From the NCBI GenBank assembly GCA_040755695.1, contig JBFMAK010000001.1, positions 254,637 to 318,636 of the forward strand: a stretch of 64,000 nt of DNA. Direction: 5' to 3'. This DNA is from Candidatus Diapherotrites archaeon. GTDB taxonomy: Archaea > Iainarchaeota > Iainarchaeia > Iainarchaeales > 1-14-0-10-31-34. A program made the translations under genes and the position numbers. Numbering within the stretch: position 1 is the stretch's first letter; every line of letters starts with the position of its first letter. Below the pieces are notes generated by a model, which did not search any database, was not told the origin of the DNA, and saw nothing but the letters and a program-made list of their open reading frames with translations. Of this stretch, positions 53,403 through 63,645 are shown piece by piece.

Positions 53403-54832
53403 TGGTATATATGAAGTTTTACGACCGCGAACAAGAATTAAGGGAAATGAAGCTGCTTAAAAAAAAGCAGCCTTCAATGTTAGTTATAACTGGGAGAAGG
53501 CGTGTCGGTAAAACAGAAATAATAAAAAGATTTTTAGCAAAAGAAAAAGGCATTTATTTTTTTGTAGATAACCAAAAATCAGAAAAAATGCTTTTAAGAG
53601 AATACAGCAAACAGCTTTTAGAATACTTTAATCTAAAAGAATACATTTCTATAGATTCATGGGAAAAGTTTTTGGAGCTTATTTTTGATTTAGCAAAAAA
53701 GAAAGACACAACAATCGCTTTTGACGAATTCCAAAGGTTTCTTCAAATAAATCCTTCTTTTATAAACCAGCTTCAAAAGTATTGGGATGTGCATAGAAAT
53801 AAAATAAAATTATTTTTGGTTTTGAGTGGTTCAAGTATTGGAATGATGAGAAAAATATTTATTGAGCAAAAAGCGCCTTTATTTAAGAGGGCTCAAAACA
53901 TATTGTTTGTTGAAATATTTGATTTCAAGACAATATACAGTATTCTAAATGATTTAGGGGTCACTAGTTTTAAAACAAAATTAGAGATTTATTCGTTTTT
54001 TGGGGGGGTCATATATTATTATACTTTATTAGATTATTATAATGTAAAAAACACTGATGATTTACTGGAAAAACTTATTTTAAGAAAAAATGCTCCACTA
54101 AAAAATGAGGTTAGAGATATTGTAATTGAATCTTTTGGAAAAGAGCATAAAACATATTATTCTATTTTGACCGCTGTAGCTTTAGGGAAAACAACAAAAA
54201 AAGAGATATGCGATTTTGTTGACGTAAAAGAAACTTCTTTGTCCCATTATCTTTACGACTTAATGAATATACTTAATGTAGTGAATTATGATGTGCCGGT
54301 AACGGAAGAAAAACCTTGGAGGTCAAAGAAAGGGCATTATTTCTTAAAAGACAATTTCTTTAAGTTCTGGTTTAAATTCATTTTCAGAAACATGAGCTAC
54401 TATGAAATAGGAAATTATGATTATATTCTTGAAAAAATAAAAATTGAATTGAATTCATTTGTAGGAAAAAATTTTGAGGAAGTATGTAAAGAGTTTTTGG
54501 TTGAATTGAACAAACAAAAGAAACTTCCTTTTGTATTTTCAAAGATAGGGAACTGGCTTGACAGAAAAGGCAATGAAATAGATTTGGTGGCGTTGAGTGA
54601 TAGGCATGAAATATTGTTTGCTGAATGCAAGTGGCAGGACAAGAAGGTTGGTTTAAAAGAATTGTTCAGATTAAAAGAAAAGGCAAAGCAGGTTCAATGG
54701 CACGGTAAGTATAGAAAAGAATATTTTGCATTGTTCAGTAAGGCGGGGTTCGAGAGAAACTGCTTGAGTTACTGTAAAAAAAATAAGGTAATGGCTTTTG
54801 ACCTTAAACACTTAAACAAGGTTTTCTCTTAA
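53402..54832 (+). CDS. archaeal ATPase with C-terminal DUF234 (PD-(D/E)xK-like) domain
   Basis: A 476-residue paralog of the ATPase at 19931. ATG 53402 (MVYMKFYDREQEL) is preferred; ATG 53411 is also possible. The longer frame from 53366 reads through the operator-like repeat and is unlikely. P-loop GRRRVGKTEII, Walker B-like TIAFDEFQRF, sensor VLSGSSIGMM, a winged helix around residues 245-300, and DUF234 with GNEIDLVALSDRHEILFAECKW, where the acidic and Lys residues match a restriction-type nuclease core. Codon use is more A+T-rich than the neighbouring core genes. The 3' end overlaps the convergent S26 peptidase gene by 4 nt. Confidence 0.85.
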   Translation: MVYMKFYDREQELREMKLLKKKQPSMLVITGRRRVGKTEIIKRFLAKEKGIYFFVDNQKSEKMLLREYSKQLLEYFNLKEYISIDSWEKFLELIFDLAKKKDTTIAFDEFQRFLQINPSFINQLQKYWDVHRNKIKLFLVLSGSSIGMMRKIFIEQKAPLFKRAQNILFVEIFDFKTIYSILNDLGVTSFKTKLEIYSFFGGVIYYYTLLDYYNVKNTDDLLEKLILRKNAPLKNEVRDIVIESFGKEHKTYYSILTAVALGKTTKKEICDFVDVKETSLSHYLYDLMNILNVVNYDVPVTEEKPWRSKKGHYFLKDNFFKFWFKFIFRNMSYYEIGNYDYILEKIKIELNSFVGKNFEEVCKEFLVELNKQKKLPFVFSKIGNWLDRKGNEIDLVALSDRHEILFAECKWQDKKVGLKELFRLKEKAKQVQWHGKYRKEYFALFSKAGFERNCLSYCKKNKVMAFDLKHLNKVFS

Positions 54833-55323
54833 TGTAGTGGTACTAAAAGAGCTGGGTTTGTTATTCTAATCAGCGCTGGCCTGAAAAGCCTCTGCCATAA
54901 GCCCTTTTTATCACAAAAAATTTTTTTTGTTGAAAGCCTCTTGTAAAAGAAAGTGAATAATGTTCCTTGAATTAAGGAAAATAGTGCAATCAATTTGTTC
55001 AATTGCTTTAAAGGAAATTCTTTCATTTTTCTTCCATTCAACTCGACAATTTTTCCCACAACCTTTTTCGCTTCAACTGGCCCGTCAAAGAACAAATGGT
55101 TGTCGCCTTTTGTAATAAGATAAAAATTGATGCCATTATTTCTTCTTCCCAGAAATCTGTGGGCAATAAGTTTTCCTCTTTGCCTGAAAACAATAATGTC
55201 ACCAAATTCTGGTTTACTTGAATTAAAATATATCTTTGTTGCAGTGAAGGTTTTTGCTGTTGGTGCCATGCTGTTCCCAGTTACAACAAAAGAATTCTTT
55301 CCAGAAAAATATTTTTCTTTCAT
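54829..55323 (-). CDS. S26-family signal peptidase-like protein
   Basis: A 164-residue protein. VTGNSMAPTAKTF (Ser nucleophile at about residue 18), GDIIVFRQRGKLIAHRFLGR and LITKGDNHLFFDGPV match S26/S24-type peptidases; His in place of Lys as the general base (AHRF) is the archaeal/ER style. A C-terminal hydrophobic segment may anchor it. It lies 4 nt after the lipoprotein gene and close to a RiPP-like locus, where small S26-type peptidases are often found as possible leader-removing enzymes. A housekeeping signal peptidase role cannot be excluded. Confidence 0.8.
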   Translation of the reverse strand: MKEKYFSGKNSFVVTGNSMAPTAKTFTATKIYFNSSKPEFGDIIVFRQRGKLIAHRFLGRRNNGINFYLITKGDNHLFFDGPVEAKKVVGKIVELNGRKMKEFPLKQLNKLIALFSLIQGTLFTFFYKRLSTKKIFCDKKGLWQRLFRPALIRITNPALLVPLH

Positions 55324-55327
55324 CTGA

Positions 55328-56338
55328 TCACTTGATTGACGGGATTTCAGAGTAATAATTTAAGTCAAATTCTTTTTTTTCTATACTCACTAAATTTAGA
55401 CTATATACCGGATCCCCTGTTTTTAAAACAATATAAGGTTCCTTTGAGCTGATTAAGATTTCACCTACACGAACATTTTCTTTGTAGATATCAACTTTAA
55501 GACATTTAATACCCTTATAATCACAATTATTGTCTTGAATTTCAATATAATTAAAACCGTAATAATTAGGAGAAGAAAAAGTCTTGCTTTCCAAGAAATT
55601 TTTTAAATTAAATTTGTCTTCAACCCTGTTTAAAACATAAAAATAGAAAGGCAACAAAAAATATGCTCTTTCATTTAAAAATGGATCAATGTTATAGTTT
55701 GTTTCTTTGCTATGCTTCATTTCTTTTGTAAGTATCCCGCGGCCATGAAAAGAGTTATCCTGCTTGTTTATTTCAAATGTATCAAGGGCAATTACAGTTT
55801 CAGTTTCTTCATCCTTGTCCGTCAGAAACCATTTCGGAAATTTTCCTACAATTATTCCATTCCACCAAGAATCATTTTCGTCAGTGATATAAATATTGTA
55901 ATAAACCTTTGCTTTCACCGGCTCATTCCAAAAAATTTCATAATTTAACATAACGCCTTTGCTGAAGTCTATTTTTCGCTCAAAAACAAATTGCTTGCTG
56001 GAATAGAAAGACTCCAAGGAATTTGACGGCGTTAACTTTATTGAAATTTTTCCGCTCGTTATATCGCATTTAAAGCTTATTGTATTCAAACCTTTATTCA
56101 AATCAAAATAATTAAAGCAAAGCAGGGAATCACTGGAATCGAAAATCTCAATTCTTGTTTTTTTTGCTTCACCATTGGAAAACAATGAAACAGCAAGTTC
56201 TAGAATTCCAAAACCTTGCTCAGCATTAACAGAAATCTCTTTTACTTCGAGAAAAATATTTTCTTTGGTCTTTGGCTTATCTTCTATGCAGCCTGCTAAA
56301 AAAAACAGCACTAAAACCAACAAAAAGTACTTTTTCAT
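55328..56338 (-). CDS. putative lipoprotein next to a RiPP-like locus
   Basis: A 336-residue protein. MKKYFLLVLVLFFLAGC is a signal peptide with a lipobox-type Cys at residue 17. The mature part is all-beta in appearance with no motif that I know (for example VKEISVNAEQGFGILELAVSLFSNG resembles a CARDB-like strand pattern). A TATA-like TTATTTAAATATAT at about 56363-56376 suits a short leader. It is divergent from the peptide gene at 56452 and 4 nt before the S26 peptidase gene. It might protect against or bind a secreted product, but this is inference. Confidence 0.65.
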   Translation of the reverse strand: MKKYFLLVLVLFFLAGCIEDKPKTKENIFLEVKEISVNAEQGFGILELAVSLFSNGEAKKTRIEIFDSSDSLLCFNYFDLNKGLNTISFKCDITSGKISIKLTPSNSLESFYSSKQFVFERKIDFSKGVMLNYEIFWNEPVKAKVYYNIYITDENDSWWNGIIVGKFPKWFLTDKDEETETVIALDTFEINKQDNSFHGRGILTKEMKHSKETNYNIDPFLNERAYFLLPFYFYVLNRVEDKFNLKNFLESKTFSSPNYYGFNYIEIQDNNCDYKGIKCLKVDIYKENVRVGEILISSKEPYIVLKTGDPVYSLNLVSIEKKEFDLNYYSEIPSIK

Positions 56339-56451
56339 TTCATACCATTAATACTTATTCTCTTATTTAAATATATACAGCTCTTTAGACCTCAAAGATA
56401 GATTGCGGGGTAGAACATTATTTTAAAAAACTTCTGGGTATTCTATTAACT

Positions 56452-56541
56452 ATGAAGAAAAAAAAGTATAAAAAGCCTTCAATAAAAAAATTAAGTATTA
56501 AGGCTGCTAGAGGGGCTACCGGAATTGCTACTAATGTATGA
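56452..56541 (+). CDS. 29-residue putative RiPP precursor peptide
   Basis: ATG 56452 to TGA 56541, not found by length-limited gene calling. The first half is Lys-rich and contains YKKPSI, a match to YxxPx[IL], the leader motif bound by PqqD-like B1 proteins in lasso-peptide systems. The second half reads KLSIKAARG then ATGIATNV, a small-residue segment suited to a core peptide. A TATA-like TTTTAAAAAA lies about 25-30 nt upstream. The gene is 21 nt before a radical SAM gene on the same strand, with pqqD, an HprK-like gene and a nucleotidyltransferase gene nearby. Confidence 0.65.
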   Translation: MKKKKYKKPSIKKLSIKAARGATGIATNV

Positions 56542-56562
56542 CCACTAAATTAATGCCTGGTT

Positions 56563-57522
56563 TTGAACTTGCCTTATAAAAACAAAATAACTTCTATTAG
56601 TATCCTATACACACACAAATGCCCTATTTATTGTGATCACTGTTGTGGTAATTTTTCTCCTAAAAGAAAAGAAAAATTGACCCCCAAAAAAGTCTTGGAT
56701 TATTTCAACGATATCTCTTCAATAAAAGTCAAAAAAATATGTTTCACCGGCGGGGAACCCTTCCTTTTTTTTGATGAATTAATTAATTTGATTTCAAAAG
56801 GAAAAAGAATGGGGTTTAAAATTTCAGTTATTTCAAACGGCTTTTGGGCAGTGAATGAAAAAGAAACAAGAAAGATAATGAGGCTTCTGTCAAAAAATGG
56901 TTTAGCTGCCATTAAAATCAGTGCCGATGAATTCCACCAAAAGTTTATTCCTATAGACAATATTTTGAACATTTTAAAAATAAGCAATAAGCAAATACCA
57001 TTAAAAACAATCATTTCGTTCACCAAAACTAAAGACCTAAACCACTTAAATTTACTACACTTTTTTAAAAAATTCAGGAAACTCCGCCTTCTTGTTCAGC
57101 CGGTTATCCCTGTTGGCAGGGCAAAAAACAAAATTAAAAAAGAAAAAGTGCTTTATAGAAAGATTGACCCCAAAGCAAAATGCCCTATGCCTGATCTTCC
57201 AACAATTGATGCTTATAAACAAGTTTATGTATGCTGTAATGGAATACTTGCAGGAAGAAATTCAATTTTTCATATAGGAGATACATCTAAAGAAGAACTA
57301 AAAGATATTCTCCTTAAATTCAAAGAAAACAGATTAATACATTTCTTAAAAACAGAAGGACCTTTTATACTTGTAAAAGAATTAGAAAAAAATAAATTAA
57401 GAAAAAGAAGGGAAATAAAGACAAAAAAATATGTGGGGGTATGCGATTACTGCATGAAACACCTTGCAACATACAGAAAAAACGACATAGAGAAGGCTTT
57501 GGAAAAAATCTACTTAAAATAA
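56563..57522 (+). CDS. radical SAM enzyme beside the precursor peptide
   Basis: A 319-residue radical SAM protein from TTG 56563. The cluster motif is CPIYCDHC (about residues 19-26), followed by FTGGEPF and VISNGFWA. The C-terminal region has further Cys residues (KCPMP, VYVCCNG and GVCDYCMKH, about 215-305), suggesting SPASM or twitch-type auxiliary Fe-S binding. Such enzymes often make cross-links or epimerise residues in RiPPs. It follows the 29-residue peptide gene by 21 nt and overlaps the 3' end of the convergent pqqD gene by 13 nt. Confidence 0.85.
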   Translation: MNLPYKNKITSISILYTHKCPIYCDHCCGNFSPKRKEKLTPKKVLDYFNDISSIKVKKICFTGGEPFLFFDELINLISKGKRMGFKISVISNGFWAVNEKETRKIMRLLSKNGLAAIKISADEFHQKFIPIDNILNILKISNKQIPLKTIISFTKTKDLNHLNLLHFFKKFRKLRLLVQPVIPVGRAKNKIKKEKVLYRKIDPKAKCPMPDLPTIDAYKQVYVCCNGILAGRNSIFHIGDTSKEELKDILLKFKENRLIHFLKTEGPFILVKELEKNKLRKRREIKTKKYVGVCDYCMKHLATYRKNDIEKALEKIYLK

Positions 57523-57782
57523 ATTAATTTTAGGTCTTTAAGTTTTTTAATGCAATCAAAAAGATCCTTCTTTGCTTGCCCATCTTTTAGCTTATATTTG
57601 TTTTTTGTAGCTTGCGAGATTTCTTTGAAAGAACTTTTTCCATTAATTTTTTTCCAGATAAACGATGCAGTAGAATTCAGCCTGAAAAAAAAATATTTTT
57701 CAGGTTCAAAGACTAATACCTCCCCTTCAATTTCTTTCCATTCAACATCTTTACATTTATATGCAATTTTTTTGGCATTCAT
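57510..57782 (-). CDS. PqqD-family peptide-binding (RRE) protein
   Basis: A 90-residue PqqD-like protein. VLVFEPEKYFFFRLNSTASFIWKKINGKSSFKEI (about residues 24-57) is the typical strand and winged-helix pattern in which N-x-T/S-A-x-x-I/V-W marks PqqD domains. These proteins present the leader peptide to RiPP enzymes. It is the last gene of a minus-strand operon that starts at 63645, 38 nt after the HprK-like gene. Confidence 0.85.
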   Translation of the reverse strand: MNAKKIAYKCKDVEWKEIEGEVLVFEPEKYFFFRLNSTASFIWKKINGKSSFKEISQATKNKYKLKDGQAKKDLFDCIKKLKDLKLIYFK

Positions 57783-57820
57783 TTTTCCACCAAAGCCTTA
57801 ATCATTTAATTCAGAAATCT

Positions 57821-58705
57821 TTATAACACTTTCCTTATTTTCACCCAAACCTTTTTCTCAGGCAAGAATTCAAGGTTGAAGCATTTGCTTCTTTTTACTA
57901 CGCCCATTGCAAAATCAAATGCCTGAAAAAAGGAAGGATCTTTTTTCATGTAAAGAAAATTTAAAGCAAAATTGCTATTAATTAATTTAAAGATTGAGTT
58001 AATAGGGTTTAATTTGTACAAAAAATTTTTCCTAGCTTTTTTGATAAAGAAAAGAGCTTTCAAAGGAAGCCCTTTTTTTGAACCTTTGAATTCACCAAAA
58101 AAAGGAAAAGAAAAAACAAAAATTTTTCTTCCCGCCACTTTTAACACATTCATATCATCACTAAATGTTCGATCTTCACTTAATAGTTTCATTATAGTGG
58201 TTTTTCCTTCTCCTGAAGGCCCTAAAAAAACCAATGCCTTGTTATTTTTGTTCACAGCTGAGGAGTGAAGCATTAAGGCTTTTTTCTTTAAAAAAAACAA
58301 CGAATAACAAATCATTAAACTTATTTTAAAGGCATTGATAAACTTGCTTTTATAATTAGGTAAATTCACCTCTATTGTTGCATAACTCCTCCTTAAGTTA
58401 ATTTTGCATTTCCATATCTTTGAAAAACCTTTTTTATTAAAAATAAAAACTCCTTTTTCTTTTGAATTCTTCATACTTACTGGGAGGGTTAATGGGGCCA
58501 CATTTTTTTTATTTAAAGTGATTTTTTTTTTGTTGCTTTTAACTAAAAAATTTATTGTAAACTCTTCTTTTTTATTTGAAATAAATTCGCTGTAATCTTT
58601 CTCTAGCAAATCAATTATTTCCATCCTATTAGAGGTTATTAATGTTGTTGTCCCAGCCAGACTTATTTTTGTCTTAAAATTTTCTTGAAAAAAATCATTT
58701 TCCAT
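57821..58705 (-). CDS. HprK-like P-loop protein
   Basis: A 294-residue protein from ATG 58705 (MENDFF), with AGGAG about 9 nt upstream; the longer frame overlaps the previous gene. ALMLHSSAVNKNNKALVFLGPSGEGKTTIMKLLSEDR (about residues 145-181) matches the HPr-kinase-type domain (H-x-S-x-V, then G-x-S-G-x-G-K-T/S). Homologs in lasso-peptide clusters phosphorylate the precursor; others have no proven role. It lies 4 nt after the B12-type radical SAM gene and 38 nt before pqqD. Confidence 0.82.
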   Translation of the reverse strand: MENDFFQENFKTKISLAGTTTLITSNRMEIIDLLEKDYSEFISNKKEEFTINFLVKSNKKKITLNKKNVAPLTLPVSMKNSKEKGVFIFNKKGFSKIWKCKINLRRSYATIEVNLPNYKSKFINAFKISLMICYSLFFLKKKALMLHSSAVNKNNKALVFLGPSGEGKTTIMKLLSEDRTFSDDMNVLKVAGRKIFVFSFPFFGEFKGSKKGLPLKALFFIKKARKNFLYKLNPINSIFKLINSNFALNFLYMKKDPSFFQAFDFAMGVVKRSKCFNLEFLPEKKVWVKIRKVL

Positions 58706-58709
58706 TAAT

Positions 58710-60089
58710 TCAACTCCTAATCTTTTTTTGTTCAAAATAATTCCGGGCAACACGCTTTAATAAATACATTTTTTCAGCAAAACCTTTGTGAGGGTAATAA
58801 TAAAATGAAGGGAATATTAAAGGAAACTTTTTTATTAATGATATTATTTCTTTCTTAGTTGAAGCAGATAAATTAAATATGACTTGGTTACTTATGTCAG
58901 AAACAATGCCTTCATCAAACTTTATTGAATGTCTGTATTTATGATAGAGGGCTGAATTTGCTAGAGGACTACATAAATGAAGCTGTGTTCTAATTCTTTT
59001 GCCATATAATCCGTTGTAGAGGGTTCTCAAAAACATCGTTTTCCTGAAATCAGCAATTGATTCAAAGGGGAAGCCCCAAACAAATGAGACCAAAGTATCA
59101 TCAAAATATTTCATTGATTTGTCAATCACTTTTTCAGCTAATTCAATGGTGAAAGGCTTATTGATGCGTTTAAGCACATTATTTGAAGCGGATTCTATGC
59201 CATAATAAATTCTTTTAAAATCACTTCCTGATAATTCTTCCATTAATCTTTTGTCCATGCAGTTCACTGACGCTGAACACCCAAAATTAGCATCTATTTT
59301 TTGTTTTCTTATTTCTCTGCATAAGGCAATAACCCTTTTCTTGTTCAGAGCGAAATTATCGTCAACCATCCTTATCAACTGCGGCTTATATTCTGAAACC
59401 ACAAAATTTATTTCATTAACTACCCTCTCGATGCTTCTAAATGTTACTTTATTATTACACTGTGGGTTTATGCCGCAAAAAACGCATTTAAATATGCATC
59501 CGCGTGAGCTTGAAATATGGAATGTATTATAATTACTTAAATCAATTGAATTATTTATTGGAGACGGAAATTCATCCAAATTTATTGTTCTTTCTCTTGT
59601 AAAATTTGAAATAACTCTGCCATTGCTTCCGTAAGTTATTCCTTTAACTTTTCTAAGAGAATTTTTTTGTTTTATGGCATTCATTAATTCAACTATTGTT
59701 TTTTCTCCTTCGCCTCTCACAATTACCCCAATTTGAGGAAAATTCCTCATTACCTCTTCCTCAATACCATTTATTGCTGGCCCCCCAACTATAATCGTTT
59801 TTTCAGGGAATTTTTCTTTTAATTTTTTTATTCCGATTAATGCAAAAGGCAAAAATTCAACAGAAAAACTTAACCCCACAATGTCTGCAGAATTTTTTAG
59901 AAACTTAACTAAATTTTGTGGGTCATACTGGTTTTTGTAGGAGTTAAATTGATAATCTTTAAAATCAACTGAAAAGCCGGCTTTTTCAAGACTGCTTATA
60001 ATATACAACACTCCAACAGGAGTGTAGGCAATCTTTTTTGAGTTCTCTAGATATTTAACCCTCAAATTTACAAGTGTTATGTCAGCCAT
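58710..60089 (-). CDS. B12-binding-domain radical SAM enzyme
   Basis: A 459-residue class B-type radical SAM protein. The N-terminal domain (about residues 15-145: TPVGVLYIISSLEKAGF, IVGLSFSVEF, IIVGGPAINGIEEE, IVRGEGE) has the B12-binding fold, without a clear DxHxxG motif. The radical SAM core starts at CIFKCVFC (about 200-207) and carries MVDDNFALNKKRV and YYGIESASNNVL. Family members methylate or otherwise change unactivated carbons. It lies between a nucleotidyltransferase and the HprK-like gene. ATG at 60089. Confidence 0.86.
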   Translation of the reverse strand: MADITLVNLRVKYLENSKKIAYTPVGVLYIISSLEKAGFSVDFKDYQFNSYKNQYDPQNLVKFLKNSADIVGLSFSVEFLPFALIGIKKLKEKFPEKTIIVGGPAINGIEEEVMRNFPQIGVIVRGEGEKTIVELMNAIKQKNSLRKVKGITYGSNGRVISNFTRERTINLDEFPSPINNSIDLSNYNTFHISSSRGCIFKCVFCGINPQCNNKVTFRSIERVVNEINFVVSEYKPQLIRMVDDNFALNKKRVIALCREIRKQKIDANFGCSASVNCMDKRLMEELSGSDFKRIYYGIESASNNVLKRINKPFTIELAEKVIDKSMKYFDDTLVSFVWGFPFESIADFRKTMFLRTLYNGLYGKRIRTQLHLCSPLANSALYHKYRHSIKFDEGIVSDISNQVIFNLSASTKKEIISLIKKFPLIFPSFYYYPHKGFAEKMYLLKRVARNYFEQKKIRS

Positions 60090-60118
60090 TTTTTACTACC
60101 TAAAATTAACATTGATTT

Positions 60119-61183
60119 TTAATCAAGCAAAAAACCTTTAATGAATGGAATTAATTTTAATTTGTCTTTTAATCCTTTAGTCCAATAAAACCTAAAATAT
60201 AAGTACCTTAATCTAAATAAAACCTTATCTTTCCAAAAGTATTCGCTCTTGAGTATTCTGTTTTCATTAAAATTTTTTAAAAATAAGAGTGTTTCTTTTT
60301 TTGAATTTCTCTTTAACTTATTCATTGTTTTTTTTGGGATTTGCATTTCAAACAATTTTTGAGCTAAAAATAGTGAATGATAAAGTATTTCGCACACATT
60401 AAATTCAATTGCTCTCTCAACAAATTTATTCCAATCTATTTTAAATTTTTCAATTATTTTTTTCATTCTTAATAGATTTGGTATTGCCACTTGGAACGCA
60501 TGGGAGTAAATTAAATGTAAAGAAAAATAAATTAATTGGTCTTCAGGACAAAAGGTTCTCAGAAAATTGTTCCCTTTTATTGGCTTTGAGTCTTTCCGCA
60601 TCTTATTTATATCTAAATTAAAGGAATTTATGGGAAACAAGAGGTGCTGGTGCAACTCAAAATCTACAGTGAATGAACCAATTTCTTTTAAGAAAGGAGT
60701 GTGAATGCTATAACTCTTAAAAAATTTGTAAAAAATGGTTTCCTTCCCAACATAGTCCATTTTCTTTAATTCATATTCAATTAATGGAAAATCTTCTTTT
60801 CCCGCAAACAAATCAATGTCAGCTTCAGCCAGAAAATCATCTTCAAAAACTTCTTTTAATGCCCACCCCTTCAAAAGAATTACTTGAATTTTTTTCTCTT
60901 TTAATCTTTCAGCCAATTTTTTTAGCTCCCTTTTCAACAACATATTTTGGGATACAGAAAAAGAAAATAATTCTTCTAACTCTTTCATCTCTTTTCCTTT
61001 GTAACCCAATTTTTTCAAATTCAAGTAAATAGGATTAAAAACTAAATGATATTTGCTCATCCCAACAACTTCTTTCATGTTTATTCCCTGTTTAAGCAGG
61101 CTTTGAGCTTTAGCCAATCCTTTTTTTCCCAAAGGATAATCTGCACATAACAAAAGCAGTTTCTGTTCATTTGAAGGGCCCAT
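60119..61183 (-). CDS. nucleotidyltransferase (PF14907-like, RiPP/lasso-associated)
   Basis: A 354-residue protein. VILLKGWALKEVFEDDFLAEADIDLFAG (about residues 100-127) has the LKG-x-AL...DIDL pattern of the uncharacterised nucleotidyltransferase family often encoded beside lasso-peptide and HprK-like genes. The remaining part is helical (for example QLIYFSLHLIYSHAFQVAIPNLLRM). Known biochemistry of the family is sparse. It starts 3 nt after the methyltransferase gene and ends 29 nt before the B12-type radical SAM gene, in a continuous operon. Confidence 0.8.
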   Translation of the reverse strand: MGPSNEQKLLLLCADYPLGKKGLAKAQSLLKQGINMKEVVGMSKYHLVFNPIYLNLKKLGYKGKEMKELEELFSFSVSQNMLLKRELKKLAERLKEKKIQVILLKGWALKEVFEDDFLAEADIDLFAGKEDFPLIEYELKKMDYVGKETIFYKFFKSYSIHTPFLKEIGSFTVDFELHQHLLFPINSFNLDINKMRKDSKPIKGNNFLRTFCPEDQLIYFSLHLIYSHAFQVAIPNLLRMKKIIEKFKIDWNKFVERAIEFNVCEILYHSLFLAQKLFEMQIPKKTMNKLKRNSKKETLLFLKNFNENRILKSEYFWKDKVLFRLRYLYFRFYWTKGLKDKLKLIPFIKGFLLD

Positions 61184-61186
61184 TTC

Positions 61187-61921
61187 TTATTCCTCAATTT
61201 TTTTTGCCACGCAAAATAATGATAAACCTAAAGGCAATCTGATTTTCTTTGAAATCTTTGACTCAAAAGAAAGAATACTTAACAAAAGCCTGTTCACTGT
61301 TGGATGGAGCTTCATTAAATCGGACTCTCTGTCTTTAGAGAGGTTTTTGATCAACCTGAAGATTGTTATTAACGGAAAAAGCAAAGAATTCCAGTAAACT
61401 ATTTTTTCTATTGCAAAGCCTTCCTTAATAATTTTTTCTTTTAATTCCTTTTTTGTGTATCTGTGCCTTATGTGAACTGCTTTGTCGTGAGCACTGTAAA
61501 GTAAATTAAAGGCAGGTTCATTGATTATTATTATGCCCTTTTTTTTGAGCACTCTGTTGAATTCTTTTAATGCTTTTAAATCGCTTTCAACCCATTTATG
61601 ACATAAAACATCAAGTGAAAGAACAGCATCAAAAGAATTATTTTTGAAAGGAAGTTTCTCTATAGGGGCATTAACTAAATTCCTCAAGCCTCTTTTCCTG
61701 CAATATAAAAGGGCTCTCATTGAAAGGTCAAGACCCATTACTTTTACTGTCGCACTTAATTCTTTTGCCAGAATTCCTGTCCCGCAACCTGCATCTAAAA
61801 TCATTAAATTCTTTTTTCCAGAAAAATCTTTAATTCTTTCATGCACTAGTTTTCTGAGAAAAGAATTCCAGAAAAATTCTTCCTCCAATTCAAACAGTTT
61901 CTTGTATTCAAATTTTTCCAT
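61187..61921 (-). CDS. class I SAM-dependent methyltransferase (UbiE-like)
   Basis: A 244-residue methyltransferase. NLMILDAGCGTGILAKELS (about residues 37-55) is motif I. VMGLDLSMRALLYCRKRG and FDAVLSLDVLCHKW are motifs II and III/IV. Methyl-11 type, substrate unknown: lipid, sugar or peptide are all possible. It lies 3 nt after the glycosyltransferase gene and 3 nt before the nucleotidyltransferase gene. Confidence 0.88.
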   Translation of the reverse strand: MEKFEYKKLFELEEEFFWNSFLRKLVHERIKDFSGKKNLMILDAGCGTGILAKELSATVKVMGLDLSMRALLYCRKRGLRNLVNAPIEKLPFKNNSFDAVLSLDVLCHKWVESDLKALKEFNRVLKKKGIIIINEPAFNLLYSAHDKAVHIRHRYTKKELKEKIIKEGFAIEKIVYWNSLLFPLITIFRLIKNLSKDRESDLMKLHPTVNRLLLSILSFESKISKKIRLPLGLSLFCVAKKIEE

Positions 61922-61924
61922 TTA

Positions 61925-62644
61925 TTATTCCTTTCCAAATTTTTTCTTGAAACTAAAAATGTAAGGAACCATTTTAATTTCTCTCATTAAGCTAAAAGAG
62001 CTTTTTCTTTGCTCATGCCACACTACAGGCAATTCAATAATTTTCATTCCTTTCTTCTGTGCCCTAATCAAGAGTTCTGCGTCCCAGAACCAGCCTCTTG
62101 ATAGAGAGGCATCATAGCCTAATTCTTTCACTAATTCAATTAATTTTTTTCTTTTAAATGCCTTTATCCCGCAGTTATGGTCTCTTATTTTTGAATTGAA
62201 ATAAAACTGAATGAATTTGTTGTAAAGGAGGCTCATGAGGCGCCTGGAAATCCTCCTTTTTATTCTACTGCCTTTCACATACCTGCTTCCAAGGGCAATG
62301 TCTTCTCCTTTCCTTATTTCTTCAACCAGTTCAGGGATGGCACTCAAGCTTTGAATTGAATCAAGGTCCAGAAATACAACTATGTTGCCTTTTGCCTGCA
62401 GGAATGATTGCGCAAGATTTTCTCTTCTTGTGGGCCCTTTTTCAAATTCAATTAATTTAATTGCTTTTTTGTTTTTCGCGAATTCCTTTATTATTTTCCT
62501 TGAATTATCCTTTGAGTTATCATCAACTACAATCAATTCAAATGACCTAAAACCCTTATTCAGGAAATCATACATCTTGTGCAGGTTCTGCTTAACAGAA
62601 CTTTCTCCGTTGTACACAGGCACAAAAAAAGACACTTCAGCCAT
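61925..62644 (-). CDS. family 2 glycosyltransferase (dolichol-phosphate-sugar synthase-like)
   Basis: A 239-residue GT2 enzyme from ATG 62644 (MAEVSFFVPVYNG), 14 nt after the upstream stop with a TGAGGTTA ribosome-binding-like site; the longer frame overlaps the radical SAM gene. ELIVVDDNSKDNS is the DXD-preceding motif, VVFLDLDS the metal-binding DxD, and GYDASLSRGWFWDAELLIRAQ the acceptor-side region. Similar to dolichol-phosphate mannose/glucose synthases without a membrane tail. Encoded in the same operon as the RiPP-like genes. Confidence 0.88.
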   Translation of the reverse strand: MAEVSFFVPVYNGESSVKQNLHKMYDFLNKGFRSFELIVVDDNSKDNSRKIIKEFAKNKKAIKLIEFEKGPTRRENLAQSFLQAKGNIVVFLDLDSIQSLSAIPELVEEIRKGEDIALGSRYVKGSRIKRRISRRLMSLLYNKFIQFYFNSKIRDHNCGIKAFKRKKLIELVKELGYDASLSRGWFWDAELLIRAQKKGMKIIELPVVWHEQRKSSFSLMREIKMVPYIFSFKKKFGKE

Positions 62645-62658
62645 TTTTTTTCTTAACC

Positions 62659-63645
62659 TCAAAAATTCTTGCCAGCCAAATTCATTAAAGCTCCAAGATT
62701 CATTGAGCCAATGAAATTGTATTCCATGCAGTTTGCGCTTAGGCAGGAACCGCAATTTAAGCCAGATAACTTTTCAAATGCTTTTTCAAATCCATTTTCA
62801 AAAAAGTTTAGTGCATTAAATTTTTCCATTGAATTAAAGCACGGAAAAATGTCTTCGTTGGAGTCAATGTGACAGAACTGCCTTCCAGCAAGGCATTTTA
62901 TAGCCTTTGACGAATCAGGCCAGTACAGTAAATGCTTCAGGTACTGCATTGAATTTGCAACCTTTTTTCTTTCAATCTTTGCTTCAATCAATTTTTTTAC
63001 TACATTCTTGTATTCTTTTTCTGATGGTCGGATTTTTTCTGTTTTGCCTGAAAGCCTTGGGTTGTGGTGTAATGGCTGGAATGAAGCCCAGAAATTCAGT
63101 TCTTGGGCTTTTTCAAGAATGAAATCAATTTCATTCAAATTATATTTTGTGAGCGTTGTTACAGTCCATACCTTAATTCCGTTTTCCCTTGCTTTTTTTA
63201 TTGCACCCACCACTTTTTCATAGCATTTAATTCCTCTTTGCATGTCATGGATTTTCTTGCTTCCATCAAGACTCAATACAAGCAAATTCAAATTCTTCAA
63301 CTCATCAATTCTTTTCTCTGCAAGAATTCCATTTGACCCCAGAGTAGTGAAAATTCCTTTCTTGCGCGCAAAATCAATTATTTCTCCAATGTCTTTTCTC
63401 AGCAAGGGCTCGCCCCCAGTAAATCCAATCCTTTTTGTTCCTTTTTTTGAGAGGACTTCAATTACTTCAAGCACTTGCCCTGTACTCAAATCCTTGATTT
63501 TTCTTTCTGGAATATTGCAGTAAATGCATTTGGAATTGCACTTGTTTGTAATTGAAAAGCCTGCATTCAATGGAATTCTGGCCCCAAACAAATTGCATTT
63601 AATTATGCCGCCAAACAAACTTACGCCTTGAACAAACCCCATCAA
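62659..63645 (-). CDS. radical SAM/SPASM-like enzyme, first gene of the operon
   Basis: A 328-residue protein. The cluster motif is CNSKCIYC (about residues 36-43), followed by FTGGEPLLR and VLSLDG. The C-terminal part has auxiliary Cys residues: KCLAGRQFCHIDSNEDIFPCFN, then LNCGSCLSANC, a SPASM-like set. Such proteins modify peptides or, in archaea, act in lipid or cofactor pathways. It is the first gene of a seven-gene unit running to pqqD at 57510. An alternative Met start is at 63642. Confidence 0.87.
   Translation of the reverse strand: MMGFVQGVSLFGGIIKCNLFGARIPLNAGFSITNKCNSKCIYCNIPERKIKDLSTGQVLEVIEVLSKKGTKRIGFTGGEPLLRKDIGEIIDFARKKGIFTTLGSNGILAEKRIDELKNLNLLVLSLDGSKKIHDMQRGIKCYEKVVGAIKKARENGIKVWTVTTLTKYNLNEIDFILEKAQELNFWASFQPLHHNPRLSGKTEKIRPSEKEYKNVVKKLIEAKIERKKVANSMQYLKHLLYWPDSSKAIKCLAGRQFCHIDSNEDIFPCFNSMEKFNALNFFENGFEKAFEKLSGLNCGSCLSANCMEYNFIGSMNLGALMNLAGKNF

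Follow-up and report, generated by a model that had tools for sequence, protein, structure and literature searches.

Among the described systems that come closest to the locus reported here, the epipeptide system contains EpeE (YydG), a radical S-adenosylmethionine (SAM) enzyme in which Cys223 has been proposed as the hydrogen-atom donor (PMC5682303, PMC8326336). In lasso peptide pathways, the kinases require a His-Lys-Asp-Asp catalytic set, and in pseudomycoidin the C-terminal Ser is phosphorylated by the kinase and a hexose is added by a nucleotidyltransferase-like protein (PMC9266682). The stretch of DNA analysed here (the window; 64,000 nucleotides of contig JBFMAK010000001.1 from Candidatus Diapherotrites archaeon, assembly GCA_040755695.1) carries a compact cassette of six or seven genes, in which a short peptide gene and an EpeE/YydG-like radical SAM gene lie beside genes for PqqD-like, HprK-like and nucleotidyltransferase proteins. 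An earlier note had read this locus as a pathway for a ribosomally synthesized and post-translationally modified peptide (RiPP), and its peptide, PqqD, HprK-like, nucleotidyltransferase, radical SAM and S26 genes were all recovered at their positions in the window. The product of the cassette is very probably a small peptide that carries chemical modifications.

The EpeE-like radical SAM protein was searched for in 75 genomes of the order at a threshold of E <= 1e-15, and was found only in the host genome (1.30 Mb in 42 contigs, 99.85% complete) and in two genomes of the same family, which are also named Candidatus Diapherotrites and are the host's nearest relatives carrying the cassette. At the loci of these relatives (L005 and L006) the lipoprotein, radical SAM, PqqD, HprK-like and nucleotidyltransferase genes are kept in order and strand, with the S26-like gene identified in L006, and the linkage is retained at ~27-48% protein identity across the three genomes. 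In a fourth family member (G005) the cassette is truncated by a contig end, where the nucleotidyltransferase gene and a fragment of the HprK gene remain. The conserved small open reading frame (ORF) that the earlier note had proposed to look for beside orthologous radical SAM and pqqD genes is present in both relatives: the gap between the lipoprotein and radical SAM genes holds a short minus-strand ORF, MNYEKPKIKVLNIKIANAAASISTKIVASSSTST in L005 and MEYKKPLIRKINIKSVGASLNFTVTQSAGIVQT in L006. The peptide is encoded on the plus strand in the window and on the minus strand in the relatives, with its intergenic position and linkage retained. All three precursors (29-34 residues) start with a leader of the form Y-[KE]-K-P-x-I-x-x-[LI]-x-I-K (Y-K-K-P-S-I, Y-E-K-P-K-I and Y-K-K-P-L-I at the beginning; Y, K, P, I, I and K invariant in the alignment) and diverge afterwards into cores that vary strongly in length and sequence, the window core being short and rich in Ala, Gly, Thr and Ile. 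None contains Cys, two of the three cores have no aromatic residue, and none matches any NCBIfam model, even at E 10. A motif scan of the host genome returned no other Y-x-K-P peptide, but it also passed over the window peptide, since TTA leucine was excluded at its last codon, and so says nothing about absence. That the ORF arose by chance, or encodes a small regulatory peptide outside any RiPP pathway, might be suspected from its very short length and the AT-rich intergenic region, yet this is scarcely credible: the 12-residue leader common to the three gaps has a BLOSUM62 sum-of-pairs score of 125, whereas 300 dinucleotide shuffles reached 60 at most, and is therefore shared beyond chance, while its codons differ synonymously among the genomes (TAT/TAC, CCT/CCA, ATA/ATT). 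A precursor with a conserved leader and a variable core adjoins the modifying enzymes, as expected of a RiPP locus, and together with the linked cassette in two relatives it largely bears out the RiPP interpretation.

For the radical SAM enzyme beside the peptide gene, the best NCBIfam model is the YydG epimerase TIGR04078 (E 2.5e-42), and a PDB search with a profile of the three orthologous sequences (36% identity in the relatives) returned EpeE/YydG structures 8ai1-8ai6 at E 1.8e-32, with other radical SAM structures ~25 orders of magnitude weaker. An invariant Cys-Cys pair (residues 224-225, window numbering) aligns with the Cys-Cys of EpeE in the region of the hydrogen donor. The second Cys of the EpeE pair would be Cys223 through a 25-residue numbering offset, given the 319 residues of YydG and the 344 residues of the solved chain. 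Cys 207, 294 and 297 are also invariant in the three orthologues and could hold an auxiliary cluster. Thioether classes are unlikely because no precursor contains Cys, and thioether and cyclophane chemistry together are disfavoured by the absence of Cys and, in two of three cores, of aromatic residues; epimerization of aliphatic residues is our best guess for the chemistry of this enzyme. No PqqD or HprK is annotated near its relatives on Halocatena, Klebsiella and Lactococcus plasmids, and no HprK, nucleotidyltransferase or PqqD gene was found in the stretches read around the EpeE-like genes of four other archaea (G113, G302, G340 and G353). In one of these, G113, an ORF of 114 residues, charged in a leader-like part and very hydrophobic in its tail (NRLAVVFVTAIAVAVVAVKVKVYV), lies directly upstream of the EpeE-like gene (TIGR04078 E 5.7e-24) and of genes for an apparent ABC-type ATPase and membrane protein; this locus (L120) is possibly an archaeal epipeptide- or proteusin-like cluster.

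The PqqD-like protein is the sole PF05402 match in the host genome and is above the cut-off in the window and in L006, where its orthologue is 48% identical (the copy of G003, one of the two relatives, is partly masked in the data); HprK was found at none of the PqqD loci of other archaea that were checked for the same gene set. The HprK-like protein matches HprK_rel_A (E 8.9e-8) and ScmC (E 1.3e-5), both below cut-off; its H163, P-loop K184 and D200 are invariant, the first Asp is replaced by Glu in the relatives, and a PDB sequence search with its profile returned P-loop noise only. The nucleotidyltransferase belongs to PF14907 (E 2.5e-31 in L006), with an invariant D-I-D and orthologues in L005, L006 and L095. 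The S26-like protein, a candidate leader protease, falls just under the cut-off of the archaeal signal peptidase model, with the L006 copy above the PF00717 cut-off, and has conserved G-x-S-M-x-P, G-D-I and H-R motifs. The lipoprotein evolves fast and keeps its lipobox; it is a candidate immunity, anchor or target protein.

The sole plasmid record matching the HprK-like protein was pNP243 of Butyrivibrio fibrisolvens (E 3e-4), where genes for an HprK-like protein, a 57-residue ORF (MKKAYVKPELKASMNGTLEGVYACP...), PqqD and an S24/S26 peptidase follow one another, with a split ATP-binding cassette (ABC) transporter upstream. The pNP243 peptide (MKKAYVKPELKAS...) has a Y-x-K-P-x-L leader and a Cys-rich core. 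Profiles of the archaeal proteins match its HprK (E 1.1e-12), S26 (E 2.5e-5) and PqqD (E 9e-4) proteins, and both HprK-like proteins have the catalytic His and Lys and one of the Asp residues in common. The association of HprK, PqqD and S26 with a Y-x-K-P-x-[IL] peptide thus extends to bacteria, which supports the cassette independently. Radical SAM, PF14907 and lasso enzymes were not found in the pNP243 stretch read. This stretch is apparently an unnamed RiPP cluster.

We read the locus, with a probability of about two in three, as a RiPP biosynthesis cassette with tailoring by an epimerase, a kinase and a nucleotidyltransferase, and we infer its chemistry, step order, export and function as follows, whereas the gene content, a leader conserved ahead of a variable core, the homologies and the catalytic residues are observed in the sequences. 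The precursor would be made by the ribosome, and its Y-x-K-P-x-[IL] leader bound by PqqD, so that the core is presented. The EpeE-like enzyme would then take the Cα hydrogen from aliphatic core residues and a conserved enzyme Cys would return it, giving D-residues; a core Ser or Thr, probably near the C-terminus, would be phosphorylated by the HprK-like kinase, and the PF14907 protein would put a sugar or nucleotide on the phosphate, on the model of PsmK and PsmN in pseudomycoidin. The leader would finally be cut off by the S26-like protease, and the lipoprotein may serve for immunity or as an anchor of the product. The B12-binding radical SAM enzyme of the window genome may add methyl groups. 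That these features together define a new RiPP class of DPANN archaea, a linear peptide bearing D-residues from an EpeE-like epimerase as well as a phosphate or phospho-sugar from the lasso-type kinase and nucleotidyltransferase, both modifications relying on a single PqqD, and C-methylated by the B12-binding enzyme in the window organism, is a tentative proposal, to which we give rather less than even chances.

Several observations weigh against the proposed cassette. The TIGR04078 score of the radical SAM enzyme is 145.4 bits, below the curated cut-off of 300, and the position of EpeE Asp210, located where the 8ai6 and 8ai1 chain sequences differ, is not conserved in the alignment. Ser is absent from the window core, and none of the Thr residues there stands at the extreme C-terminus. 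AlphaFold predictions were of low confidence, with a mean predicted local distance difference test score of 33 for the HprK-like protein (from a two-row alignment) and of 60 for the lipoprotein, no exporter was found within the cassette, the full cassette is found in three genomes only, with short precursors, and glycosyltransferases adjoin the nucleotidyltransferase gene in the relatives. The score at half of the cut-off and the unconserved Asp210, as well as cores that are so different between relatives, would suit a RiPP cassette whose radical SAM enzyme yields something other than D-residues, such as a C-C or C-N crosslink or a Cα oxidation, the likeness to EpeE being one of fold only; we consider this unlikely, since no other solved structure matches nearly as well as EpeE, the catalytic Cys-Cys is kept, and the cores offer no Cys and hardly any aromatics for crosslinks.

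The glycosyltransferases raise another explanation, in which the peptide and radical SAM genes form a small RiPP unit, and the HprK, PqqD and nucleotidyltransferase genes belong to a separate neighbouring glycan or polysaccharide system. HprK-like genes lie without PqqD among glycosyltransferase genes in four other archaea (G059, G165, G280 and G057), and GT4 and membrane protein genes are beside the nucleotidyltransferase gene in three relatives. Such a division is nevertheless highly improbable: proteins of the PqqD family bind leaders and the peptide carries a Y-x-K-P-x-I leader, the Butyrivibrio locus unites HprK, PqqD and S26 with such a peptide but without a radical SAM enzyme, and the linkage has held over three genomes with proteins ~27-48% identical. 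The possibility raised earlier, that PqqD and HprK are linked only to glycan genes in relatives, does not apply to the relatives with the cassette, where PqqD and HprK sit with the peptide ORF and not with glycan genes alone. Each of the four family members has a GT4-type gene and a multi-pass membrane protein gene in the vicinity of its nucleotidyltransferase gene, some kilobases off in the window genome; the membrane protein had no Pfam match where scanned.

Returning to the RiPP cassette, its features are listed in Table 1. The peptide ORF is followed after 21 bases by the radical SAM gene, and the lipoprotein and S26-like genes lie on its other side on the minus strand. The minus-strand run from 63645 to 57510 comprises the third radical SAM, GT2, methyltransferase, nucleotidyltransferase, B12-binding radical SAM, HprK-like and PqqD genes, separated by small gaps or overlapping. 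The description of these genes as one coherent maturation set holds for the conserved core but not for four of them: the B12-binding radical SAM protein has no match in the two relatives or in G005 at E <= 1e-40, and the GT2, methyltransferase and third radical SAM genes are absent from L005 and L006. In the window genome the B12-binding enzyme possibly contributes a further modification such as C-methylation, the methyltransferase may be accessory or unrelated to the cassette, and the GT2 and third radical SAM enzymes may be accessory or glycan-related. In the host genome these genes run into a region with a second B12-binding radical SAM gene and GT2 and GT4-like genes, and because of this neighbourhood the GT2, methyltransferase and third radical SAM proteins may serve glycans.

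Table 1. Features of the cassette and of the loci compared with it (positions without a locus label are those of the window).
Feature	Position	Strand	Evidence or remark
Precursor peptide gene, 29 residues, MKKKKYKKPSIKKLSIKAARGATGIATNV	56452-56541	+	homologous ORFs in L005, L006
EpeE/YydG-like radical SAM enzyme, CxxxCxxC, TTG start	56563-57522	+	TIGR04078; PDB 8ai1-8ai6
PqqD-like leader-binding protein (RiPP recognition element), 90 residues	57510-57782	-	PF05402, E 1.5e-10
HprK-like kinase	57821-58753	-	weak HprK_rel_A and ScmC matches; conserved residues
B12-binding radical SAM enzyme	58710-60089	-	window genome only
PF14907 (NTP_transf_5) nucleotidyltransferase	60119-61183	-	E 3.6e-30
Class I SAM methyltransferase	61187-61921	-	window only
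GT2 glycosyltransferase	61925-62755	-	window only
Radical SAM enzyme, nearest family PTO1314	62659-63645	-	window only
Lipoprotein, lipobox (G-C)	55328-56338	-	adjoins peptide in both relatives
S24/S26 signal-peptidase-like protein	54829-55323	-	archaeal signal peptidase model, E 1.5e-11
Homologous precursor ORF	L005:7104-7208	-	gap between lipoprotein and radical SAM genes
Homologous precursor ORF	L006:4231-4332	-	gap between lipoprotein and radical SAM genes
GT4-type and membrane protein genes near nucleotidyltransferase	L102:5917-8714; L005:10549-14951; L006:7812-10638; L095:1392-4170		
PF00733 match, host genome	C1:61660-62370		
Butyrivibrio pNP243 stretch	L112:4587-6610		
Archaeon G113	L120:3627-5738		
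Archaeon G176	L049:2672-6544		
Archaeon G220	L070:5103-9283		
Archaeon G097	L077:4540-6318		
G019, same order	L056:4302-12529		
G050, same order	L063:5906-9633		

Further peptide and radical SAM loci were noticed in other archaea. In L049, a peptide (MVIIMNKKKIWETPTIEEIDLTLYCCTPTDDEK) lies near radical SAM, PqqD and S26-like genes; in L070, two radical SAM genes and a PqqD gene come after a tandem array of four small ORFs that begin with Y-x-P-P-x-[ML]-L and have hydrophobic tails; and in L077, two paralogous small ORFs (MEYVTPELRPPVPMCMGD... and ...MEYVAPEVQPPVPMCMGD...) adjoin a radical SAM/PqqD-type protein of 473 residues. Within the order, L056 has several radical SAM genes and PqqD-like ORFs, with no precursor identified there, and L063 has a PqqD-radical SAM fusion of 454 residues, two genes past which lies one of the order's nearest relatives of the window's B12-binding enzyme.

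RiPP clusters predicted by antiSMASH have been reported across DPANN archaea, and few products are known (PMC12144867). The earlier statement that RiPPs are scarcely described in small-genome archaea therefore holds for products but not for predicted clusters; we met no matured RiPP from small-genome DPANN archaea in the papers searched, and found no description of this enzyme combination in the literature searched. With precursors identified in three genomes and lasso tailoring proteins standing apart from lasso formation, the cassette offers a direct test of the kinase and the PF14907 protein as general RiPP tailoring enzymes. Should epimerization be demonstrated, the formation of D-residues by a radical SAM enzyme would have a case in archaea, which might speculatively be of use in contacts of small-genome archaea with neighbouring cells.

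Compared with known systems, the cassette resembles proteusins of the polytheonamide type in its Ala/Ser/Thr/Val/Ile-rich cores, its radical SAM epimerase and the B12-binding radical SAM enzyme of the window, but it has no long nitrile-hydratase-type leader and its epimerase is of the EpeE and not the PoyD type; a proteusin was rejected on precursors of 29-34 residues with no nitrile-hydratase/Nif11-type leader and no family match. Sactipeptides, ranthipeptides and lanthipeptides were rejected on the lack of Cys in the three precursors. The SynChlorMet system (Scm, NCBIfam) also combines HprK-like (ScmC), PqqD (ScmD) and radical SAM proteins and gives the best or near-best weak matches, but the scores are far below the cut-offs (ScmC 24.7/125, ScmD 26.7/100 and ScmE 30.5/400 bits). 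The pNP243 cluster shares homologous HprK, PqqD and S26 proteins and a Y-x-K-P-x-L precursor, and differs in its Cys-rich core, its split ABC transporter and the lack of radical SAM and PF14907 genes in the stretch. Lasso pathways with a kinase and a nucleotidyltransferase (paeninodin and pseudomycoidin) share PqqD/B1, the HprK-like kinase and the nucleotidyltransferase, and YxxPxL, the leader motif of lasso precursors, is close to that of the cassette, with Ile in place of Leu. The cassette has a radical SAM enzyme and no B2 protease or cyclase, as the earlier note had observed: the B2 transglutaminase-like protease family PF13471 has no match in the host genome, and the asparagine-synthetase-like cyclase family PF00733 has none at the locus, its only match being ~250 kb away on the same contig, so that a lasso pathway was rejected. 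A strict epipeptide was rejected on the TIGR04078 score (145.4 against 300 bits) and on the lack of a YydF/EpeX-like precursor match. The cassette differs from the epipeptide system of B. subtilis (yydFGHIJ/epeXEPAB) in lacking a YydF-like precursor, a YydH-type protease and an ABC transporter, in the addition of PqqD, a kinase and a nucleotidyltransferase, and in its archaeal host, and resembles it in an EpeE/YydG-type radical SAM enzyme beside a small precursor and in the conserved region of the hydrogen-donor cysteine. The conserved core of peptide, lipoprotein, EpeE-like enzyme, PqqD, HprK-like protein and PF14907 protein thus appears, by homology, to join a relative of a bacterial-type epimerase to proteins associated with lasso peptides.

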